A program made the position numbers and the translations under genes. A DNA stretch of 64,000 bases from an uncultured Oscillospiraceae bacterium (lineage in GTDB: Bacteria > Bacillota > Clostridia > Oscillospirales > Oscillospiraceae): positions 26,710 through 90,709 of the forward strand of contig CAJFNY010000065.1 of the NCBI GenBank assembly GCA_904395865.1, written 5' to 3'. The notes below the pieces were generated by a model. The model searched no databases, was not told where the DNA came from, and saw only the letters and a program-made list of their open reading frames with translations. Below, in pieces: positions 54,290 to 56,654 of this stretch. Position 1 is the stretch's first letter, and each line of letters begins with the position of its first letter.

Positions 54290-54451
54290 TTACATCATGG
54301 TGTCGACGGCGTGGCACACGCTGCGCTTGACCCGGCGGGCGGCATTGTTGGCCGTCCGGTAGACGGCGGACCGCTTCGGAATCATCAACATGACGGCCGC
54401 GCCGGCCACCATGCCGGCGCCCAGGGTCACGGCAAAGCTCTTGACCTCCAT
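54290..54451 (-). CDS. 53-aa small membrane protein (YtxH-like)
   Basis: MEVKSFAVTLGAGMVAGAAVMLMIPKRSAVYRTANNAARRVKRSVCHAVDTMM; GGGAGGAGG RBS. Confidence 0.65.
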   Translation of the reverse strand: MEVKSFAVTLGAGMVAGAAVMLMIPKRSAVYRTANNAARRVKRSVCHAVDTMM

Positions 54452-54583
54452 CTGGCATCCTCCTCCCTTTCCCGAGGGTAGTATGTCCAGACGGCGGCGG
54501 GGCAGCCGAAGAAAATCTTTCCCGTGCCGCCGGCCTTTCCAACGGCGGCAGTTTATGCTACAATGGAAAAAACGGAGGGGGCG

Positions 54584-55483
54584 ATGGACGTGTCTGTGGA
54601 CGCACTGCAGAAGAAAATCCGCAAAACGAAAAATCCGGCGATCCTCTGCCTGGACCTGGCGGCGGAGCGGCTGCCGGAGCAGCTGGCGCCGCCGGAGGAG
54701 GGGCCGGCCGGCCGGGTCTGTGCCGCCGGCTCGCTGCTGCTGGGGGCGCTGGCCGGCGTGATGCCGGCGGTGAAGCTGAATACGGCGTACTTCGAGGCCC
54801 TGGGCCCCGCGGGGGCGGAGGCGCTGGCGCGGCTGTGCCGGCGGGCCCGGGCGCTGGACTACTACGTGATCCTGGAGCTGAACCGCTGCGACCCGGAGCC
54901 GGCGGCGGAGCTGCTGGCCCAGGCGTATTTCGGCAGCGCCGACCCGGCGGGCCCACCGCCGACGTGCGAGGCCGACGCCGTGGTGCTCTCCGCCTTCACC
55001 GGCAGCGACGGCGTCCGCCCGTACCTGGCCCGCTGCCGCACCCGCGGCAGGAGCGTCTTTCTCCTGGCGCGGACGGCCAACAAGTCGGCCCGGGAGCTGC
55101 AGGACCTGATCGCGGGAGACCGGGTGGTACACACGGTGGTGGCCGACCTGGCCATGCGCTGGAGCACGGACCTGTTCGGCCCCAACGGCTACTCCCAGGT
55201 GGGGCTGGTGGCCGGCCCGCCGTATGGCGACGCGCTGCAGCGGCTGCGCCGCCAGTACGACCGGCTGTTCCTGATCGTCCCGGGCTGCGGCGGGCCGGGC
55301 CTGCCGGTGCGGGACGCGCGGATGGCGTTCGACAAGTTCGGCCGCGGCGCGGCCGTGGAGGCGGTAAGTGTCACGGAGGCCTGGCAGCAGGCTGCCGCCG
55401 CGGGCGGCGACCTGGCGGAGGCGGCCCGGGCCGCCGCGGAGAAGCTGCGGGACCAGCTGGCCCAGTGGGTGCAGGTGATGTGA
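54584..55483 (+). CDS. Orotidine-5'-phosphate decarboxylase-like protein, predicted catalytically inactive
   Basis: Family II OMPDC-like fold by eye, but DxKRxDI motif reads ELNRCDP and C-terminal NSSRGI is absent. Confidence 0.7.
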   Translation: MDVSVDALQKKIRKTKNPAILCLDLAAERLPEQLAPPEEGPAGRVCAAGSLLLGALAGVMPAVKLNTAYFEALGPAGAEALARLCRRARALDYYVILELNRCDPEPAAELLAQAYFGSADPAGPPPTCEADAVVLSAFTGSDGVRPYLARCRTRGRSVFLLARTANKSARELQDLIAGDRVVHTVVADLAMRWSTDLFGPNGYSQVGLVAGPPYGDALQRLRRQYDRLFLIVPGCGGPGLPVRDARMAFDKFGRGAAVEAVSVTEAWQQAAAAGGDLAEAARAAAEKLRDQLAQWVQVM

Positions 55484-55484
55484 G

Positions 55485-56654
55485 ATGACGAGGATCTACA
55501 TCATTCGCCACGCCGAGGCGGAGGGCAATCTTTTCCGCCGCATCCACGGCCAGTACGACACGACGATCACCCCCCGCGGCCACCGGCAGATTGCCGCGCT
55601 GCGGGAACGCTTCGCGGAGGAGCCGGTGGACGCCTGCTACAGCAGCGACCTGGTGCGCACGCGCACCACGGCGCAGGCCATCTGGCTGCCCAAGGGGCTG
55701 CCGCTGCAGCTGGACGCGCGCTTCCGCGAGGTGCGCCTCGGCCGGTGGGAGGACCTGCCGTTCGGCCAGCTGGAGCGGGAGGATCCCGAGGAGCTGACCC
55801 GCTTCAGCAGAGACCCGCTGCACTGGCGGGTGGAGGGCGCGGAGACACTGGAGGAGTACGCCGGCCGCTTCCTGGCGGGGCTGCGGGACGTGGCCGAGCG
55901 GAATGACGGTCGGACGGCAGCCATTTTTTCCCACGGCTCGGTGATCCGCGCTATGCAGATGTACCTGTTTTACGGCCCGGACCGCATTCCGGAGATCGGC
56001 CACTGTGACAACACCGGCGTCAGCCTTCTGGAATACGAAAACGGAGCCTTCCGCGCCGTCTATCTCAATGACAGCGGCCACCTGACGCCGGAGCTGTCCA
56101 TCTTCACCCGGCAGAACTGGTGGCGGAAGGACGGAGCGCGGCGGGATGAGGACCTGTGGTTCCGCCCGCTGCGGGACGCAGCGGACTGGTATGCCGCCTG
56201 CCGCCGGGAGGCCTGGCAGACCATCTACGGCGAGGAGGCGCCCTTCGACGGCTACGCCTACTGGCGCAGTGCCGCAGATGCCGCCGGCAGCGAGCCGTGG
56301 TCCCTCTGCCAGGCCATGCTGGGGGACGAGCCGGCGGGGATCCTGCAGCTGAACCCGGAGCAGCTGCCGGCCGGGAACGCCGGGTGGATCTCGTTCCTCT
56401 ATCTGCTGCCGGCCTTCCGGGGCCGCGGCCTCGGCGTGCAGCTGGTGGGGCAGGCGGTGAGCTACTATCGGGCGAGGGGCCGCAGCTATCTGCAGCTGAG
56501 CGTCTCGCCGGAGAACGAAAAGGCCCTGGCCCTGTACCGGCGCTGCGGCTTCTGCGACGCCGGCTGGGTGCCGGGCCTCCGCGGCGACCTGCTGCTGATG
56601 GACTGGAACGGCGAGCTGACGCGGGACCTGCAGCCGGAGCTGCAGCCCGTGTAG
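55485..56654 (+). CDS. Fusion: histidine phosphatase (PGM-like) + GNAT N-acetyltransferase
   Basis: RHAEAEGN...SSDLVRTRTTAQ...SHGSVIR phosphatase; YLLPAFRGRGLGVQLVGQAVSYY...SPENEKALALYRRCGF GNAT. Confidence 0.88.
   Translation: MTRIYIIRHAEAEGNLFRRIHGQYDTTITPRGHRQIAALRERFAEEPVDACYSSDLVRTRTTAQAIWLPKGLPLQLDARFREVRLGRWEDLPFGQLEREDPEELTRFSRDPLHWRVEGAETLEEYAGRFLAGLRDVAERNDGRTAAIFSHGSVIRAMQMYLFYGPDRIPEIGHCDNTGVSLLEYENGAFRAVYLNDSGHLTPELSIFTRQNWWRKDGARRDEDLWFRPLRDAADWYAACRREAWQTIYGEEAPFDGYAYWRSAADAAGSEPWSLCQAMLGDEPAGILQLNPEQLPAGNAGWISFLYLLPAFRGRGLGVQLVGQAVSYYRARGRSYLQLSVSPENEKALALYRRCGFCDAGWVPGLRGDLLLMDWNGELTRDLQPELQPV

Follow-up and report, generated by a model that had tools for sequence, protein, structure and literature searches.

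A protein encoded in the window, the stretch of 64,000 nucleotides analysed here, belongs to a clade of Oscillospiraceae OMP decarboxylase (OMPDC) relatives that have all lost the catalytic lysine, and the clade is best read as a PyrF pseudoenzyme of one origin. The OMPDC fold is kept, the essential catalytic residue is lost, the gene is under purifying selection, and the reaction is either covered by a family I pyrF (19 genomes) or stands without a pathway, with pyrB, pyrD, pyrE and pyrF absent (16 genomes). The parent of this pseudoenzyme clade is a textbook enzyme; a search of the open-access literature found no OMPDC pseudoenzyme or catalytically inactive OMPDC paralogue described. That this PyrF derives from a pyrF-pyrK-pyrD-HisPhos/GNAT operon and was kept for a role other than decarboxylation, by the mechanism proposed below, is a view that we put forward with evenly balanced confidence.

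The OMPDC-like gene and its locus

The draft genome that contains the window is 2.37 Mb long and 87% complete, and the window is part of its contig C65. The OMPDC-like gene, a family II pyrF descendant without the catalytic Lys, occupies positions 54584..55483 of the forward strand (299 aa, ATG start) and is preceded by what reads as a strong Shine-Dalgarno sequence, GGAGGGGG, 2 nt before the ATG (54574..54581, +). Downstream lies a 389-aa HisPhos (branch 1)-GNAT fusion (55485..56654, +), which domain match and neighbourhoods identify as the gene that once followed pyrF-pyrK-pyrD in the ancestral operon; its start (55485) is 1 nt past the stop codon of the OMPDC-like gene. Upstream, a divergent small gene of 53 aa (54290..54451, −; MEVKSFAVTLGAGMVAGAAVMLMIPKRS...) is conserved in G003, a genome of the window genus, at L194:4682-4840 and marks the edge of the locus. 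A link to a defence system was rejected, PADLOC having given no match.

The window protein scores 132 bits against NCBIfam TIGR02127 (pyrF_sub2), above the cutoff of 110.6, which bears out the family II landmarks that a sequence-only reading of this DNA had pointed to; against Pfam OMPdecase it reaches 24 bits, under the gathering score of 27. Its AF2 model (pLDDT 88.9, pTM 0.90) predicts an intact (beta/alpha)8 barrel of the family II OMPDC type, as had been supposed, and in a Foldseek comparison with the PDB the top matches were all OMP decarboxylases (best 3r89, TMq 0.82).

Residues are given in Methanothermobacter OMPDC numbering, on which we take the family II motifs to be correctly placed from general knowledge of the family. 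In the alignment, the catalytic motif D-x-K-R-x-D-I, expected as D-A-K-R-G-D-I, is replaced by ELNRCDP at E98-P104 (54875..54895, +), at exactly the position noted from the letters alone: the Asp70 equivalent is Glu, the Lys72 equivalent is Asn (N100) and the Asp75 equivalent (D103) is kept. The catalytic tetrad, previously described as eroded, is so only in part, as K64 (54773..54775, +), equivalent to the ribose and tetrad lysine Lys42, is retained along with D103, and the Lys72 equivalent is the one position of the four that is truly lost. Changes also affect the ligand contacts. In the loop-5 stretch RTANKSARELQDL (55070..55108, +) the Ser127 equivalent is Ala, the phosphate loop VPGYGAQG is replaced by VPGCGGPG (55277..55300, +) with Pro for the Gln185 equivalent, and the strand-8 loop GAAVEAVSVTE (55346..55378, +) stands in place of GAIVNSSRGIMC, with the Arg203 equivalent lost in an alignment gap; the suspected replacement of the C-terminal phosphate-binding loop is thereby confirmed. 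Only three of the ten UMP-contact residues are kept by alignment, and binding of UMP in the classical mode therefore appears unlikely for the window protein.

Compared with family II OMPDC (PyrF, TIGR02127; PDB 3r89, 3v75), the window protein is alike in fold, landmarks, ancestral operon setting and the Lys42 and Asp75 equivalents, but differs by the loss of the Lys72 equivalent, by Glu for the Asp70 equivalent, by the losses of the Ser127, Gln185 and Arg203 equivalents, and by the second PyrF in the cell. Hexulose phosphate synthase (HPS) and KGPDC are members of the OMPDC suprafamily that have taken new roles on the same barrel and retain D-x-K-x-x-D, whereas the clade is without this motif. 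The window protein had no NCBIfam match to the HPS/KGPDC families at E <= 1 and lacks the Lys of their metal/substrate site.

A Lys-less clade of one origin

Scanning 401 Oscillospiraceae genomes and retrieving the neighbourhoods yielded 24 rows with the catalytic Lys and 35 without it, the latter from 11 genera. The catalytic Lys is absent from all 35 clade members and present in all 24 relatives in the alignment, and the Lys-less rows form one clade with support 100/100, with and without order-level outgroup rooting. Their hosts are Oscillospiraceae, mostly gut and rumen metagenome-assembled genomes, and include Candidatus Avoscillospira and Faecousia. Motif loss confined to this strain, against which the sequence-only reading had cautioned, is thus not what we found: the loss extends over 35 genomes and has one origin, under purifying selection. 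The string ELNRCDP itself, whose conservation in orthologues the sequence-only reading had proposed to test, is peculiar to the window species; it is the loss of Lys that is clade-wide. The Lys position is occupied by Met in 20 of the 35 rows and by N, D, Q, G, A or S in the others, and the prevailing motifs are D-[ST]-M-R-G-D-[IV].

Conservation elsewhere in the pocket is uneven. S168, E171 and Q173 of the loop-5 stretch (55070..55108) are invariant in every Lys-less row, and the window genus has two invariant features, E-x-x-R-[CS]-D (six genomes) and the stretch S-A-R-E-x-Q-D, which are the places to seek the present role of the window protein; in g124, G207 and g1 almost no common polar pocket set is left. 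A new enzyme, also raised in the sequence-only reading, could be built on such residues if the kept Lys42, Asp70/Glu and Asp75 equivalents catalysed a different reaction, with a phosphorylated sugar or nucleotide as substrate, comparable to HPS and KGPDC. The conserved barrel with several of its pocket residues, selection as strong as on a real enzyme, and the fixation of E-x-x-R-[CS]-D across the window genus speak for this proposal. However, the Lys position drifts among seven residues, whereas known catalytic relatives keep D-x-K-x-x-D, and the near absence of a shared polar set in g124, G207 and g1 fits poorly with one conserved chemistry, so that we regard a new enzyme as unlikely.

Pyrimidine synthesis in the host genomes

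Sixteen of the 35 Lys-less genomes, among them all seven g53 genomes (92-100% complete), encode no family I pyrF, no pyrE and no full-scoring pyrD or pyrB; their weaker pyrB and pyrD matches presumably come from paralogues, for example ornithine carbamoyltransferase or PreA. As upp is present in 15 of these 16 genomes, their UMP presumably comes from uracil salvage. The remaining 19 genomes carry a family I pyrF operon at another locus.

The genome of the window (G000) is one of the latter. Its contig C26 harbours a full pyrC-pyrK-pyrD-pyrF-pyrE-pyrB operon with a canonical family I pyrF (FLDLKLHDIPNT, 209-217 bits), and the window gene is therefore not the sole pyrF of a prototroph, the other case of which the sequence-only reading had warned; the cell's PyrF is the separate, non-orthologous family I protein. 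A tree built from pyrD-F-E clusters the operons of the window genus (support 84/56 with G003 and 99/93 without it) and, like the gene tree, has G000 and its relative G001 as sisters, which makes binning contamination unlikely as the source of the contig C26 operon. PyrC and PyrK form a single 665-aa frame on this contig (L043:8604-10601, −); in G037 (L045) each has an ORF of its own.

The family I operons of clade hosts are not one clade. Six changes are needed in the best tree and a single change occurs in 0% of bootstrap trees, although only two changes are forced by the starred branches and the number of gains is accordingly not fixed; this favours, without proving, repeated gain of the family I operon over one displacement. 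One ancestral family I displacement followed by losses is not favoured for the same reason, with the same reservation that two changes only are forced. An association between pocket erosion and the regained pathway is suggested by raw counts but is not significant in independent pairs. Two loci deserve mention on their own. G213 contains two different family I pyrD-pyrF-pyrE operons on its contigs C7 and C65 (L157, L158), and G005 encodes a second pyrE beside its operon copy (G005:C191:2074-2616) whose score resembles that of the ancestral type in Lys-bearing relatives; a relic is one possible explanation and contamination (6%) another.

Operon history and selection

The gene order of the Lys-bearing relatives is pyrF-pyrK-pyrD-HisPhos/GNAT, and pyrD is found near downstream in 23 of their 24 rows (the exception is G160, see below). 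In the Lys-less rows pyrK-pyrD are missing at the locus, and in 29 of 35 the distance between the pyrF-like stop codon and the start of HisPhos/GNAT is −3 to +16 nt. The 1-nt spacing in the window, which the sequence-only reading had given correctly and taken as coupling, is what the loss of pyrK-pyrD from the ancestral operon left behind, and it is not evidence of a partnership with HisPhos-GNAT. The same tight spacing, in the window and across the clade, is what could suggest that the barrel assists the co-translated HisPhos-GNAT enzyme, either as a chaperone or as a subunit without catalysis of its own. Against this, both genes already shared one operon before pyrK-pyrD were lost, and either occurs without the other: no HisPhos/GNAT match accompanies the barrel in four g13 genomes, G213 and G423, and in G003 HisPhos/GNAT and the divergent small gene are present with no barrel between them. 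A dedicated partnership is weakened by this history and by these genomes, and a role of the barrel as protein partner is in our estimation decidedly unlikely.

Pairwise dN/dS was 0.016-0.08 among Lys-less and 0.018-0.053 among Lys-bearing proteins, pairs with runaway (saturated) dS being left out of the comparison; for G000 and its closest relative, for instance, dS is saturated (3.4). Omega = 1 was rejected in every pair (likelihood ratio at least 81), and the frame is open in all 35 Lys-less genomes sampled. For pathway-less members of g53 and g128 the ratio of OMPDC to HisPhos-GNAT divergence is 0.43-0.48, the same as in Lys-bearing genera; it is 0.8-1.2 in the window genus (about 1.2) and other operon-bearing lineages, with 1.4 in g124. 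The window-genus protein thus evolves faster than HisPhos/GNAT and under weaker constraint. Low dN/dS and the divergence ratios together indicate that the protein is functional clade-wide and that constraint has shifted or relaxed in some lineages, including that of the window.

A stranded pyrF that is merely slow to vanish would account for the absence of the gene from G003, the varying pocket motifs and the faster change relative to HisPhos/GNAT in the window genus. Yet pseudogene drift is rejected by dN/dS and the open frames, and a decaying relic is strongly disfavoured by the same open frames, by dN/dS of 0.02-0.08, with omega = 1 rejected throughout, and by one ancient origin spanning 11 genera; we consider it very unlikely. 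The idea of a repurposed rather than decayed protein is in this respect well supported.

A possible UMP binder

The DXKXXD core has been reported from OMPDCs of all organisms, and replacing its Lys in the yeast enzyme left activity undetectable (K93A) or lowered it more than 10^8-fold (K93C) (PMC12874384). The window protein passes the NCBIfam equivalog cutoff, which would be expected of an OMP decarboxylase still active with an altered motif. Considering the yeast variants, the canonical pyrF in the same genome and the pathway-less relatives that cannot make the substrate, we give residual decarboxylase activity virtually no credence.

In an archaeal family I OMPDC, the K72A variant lost about five orders of magnitude of activity and its UMP Kd was lowered about 10^5-fold (PMC12395307). 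The equivalents of Asp20, Lys42, Asp70, Asp75, Ser127, Gln185 and Arg203 are kept in 14 of the 16 pathway-less genomes by alignment. These otherwise intact contacts, together with the tighter UMP binding of K72A, suggest that a Lys-less OMPDC could bind UMP tightly, bearing in mind that the comparison is with a family I archaeal enzyme carrying Ala and that the clade mostly carries Met. A UMP binder is thus plausible for the clade, and for these 14 genomes a UMP sensor or buffer would be the simplest reading. The ligand-sensor role that had been suggested for the window protein itself appears weaker, because this protein has in addition lost the residues that contact phosphate and pyrimidine. 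The clade resembles the laboratory variants K72A and K93A in that the fold is kept and the catalytic Lys is absent, and differs from them in being natural, ancient and selected, in having Met (Asn in the window) instead of Ala, and in the additional pocket changes of the window genus.

In the order of events that we infer, an ancestor would have lost de novo pyrimidine synthesis, pyrK-pyrD would have dropped out of the pyrF-pyrK-pyrD-HisPhos/GNAT operon, and in PyrF the catalytic Lys would have given way to another residue, most often Met, for which AAG to ATG is one base change. Strong purifying selection would have preserved the protein for some task that is not decarboxylation, and several lineages, the window genus included, would later have gained a full pyr operon with family I pyrF and kept the old protein. 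A typical clade member may hold a pyrimidine mononucleotide, most simply salvage-derived UMP, without turnover, and the ligand-closed barrel could then act as a sensor or buffer. The pocket of the window lineage would have been altered further (phosphate Arg, Gln and pyrimidine-loop Ser gone), where UMP binding in the old way may no longer be needed. We offer only tentatively, as possible rather than probable, the full scenario of a stranded PyrF of auxotrophic gut Oscillospiraceae that became a tight UMP binder reporting or buffering salvage UMP, with the pathway regained later in several lineages through a family I PyrF and the pseudoenzyme kept and remodelled. PyrR, a UMP-responsive pyrimidine regulator with a PRTase fold, is a precedent for a pathway fold acting as a UMP-responsive regulator; its fold differs from the clade barrel. 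If UMP binding is true, the clade protein would parallel in nature the K72A variant made in the laboratory.

Annotation and related proteins

Five other Lys-less members scored 82-231 bits against TIGR02127, two of them under the cutoff of 110.6; the Lys-less proteins of auxotrophs at loci L089, L036 and L037 reached 200-231 bits against this PyrF equivalog. As most Lys-less members tested pass the cutoff, automatic annotation would label these as functional decarboxylases, and auxotrophs may therefore be credited with a decarboxylase that is absent, which would make gut metabolic models wrong. Two further pseudoenzyme relatives, L196 (G040) and L197 (G042), share about 27-30% identity and have an unrecognisable catalytic motif, with HisPhos/GNAT still next in G040; to judge by such sequences, the clade probably reaches beyond what profile searches detect.

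A selected, long-lived, single-origin clade without the catalytic Lys is a natural test of what the OMPDC barrel does without catalysis, and graded intermediates are available, from G160 with Lys through DTMRGDI and DSMRGDV to ELNRCDP. G160 (L078, g15) encodes a Lys-bearing family II pyrF with DAKRGDM and SASRSI at a locus from which pyrK-pyrD are gone, in a genome with no pyrE, and apparently represents an independent lineage in which this process has gone less far.
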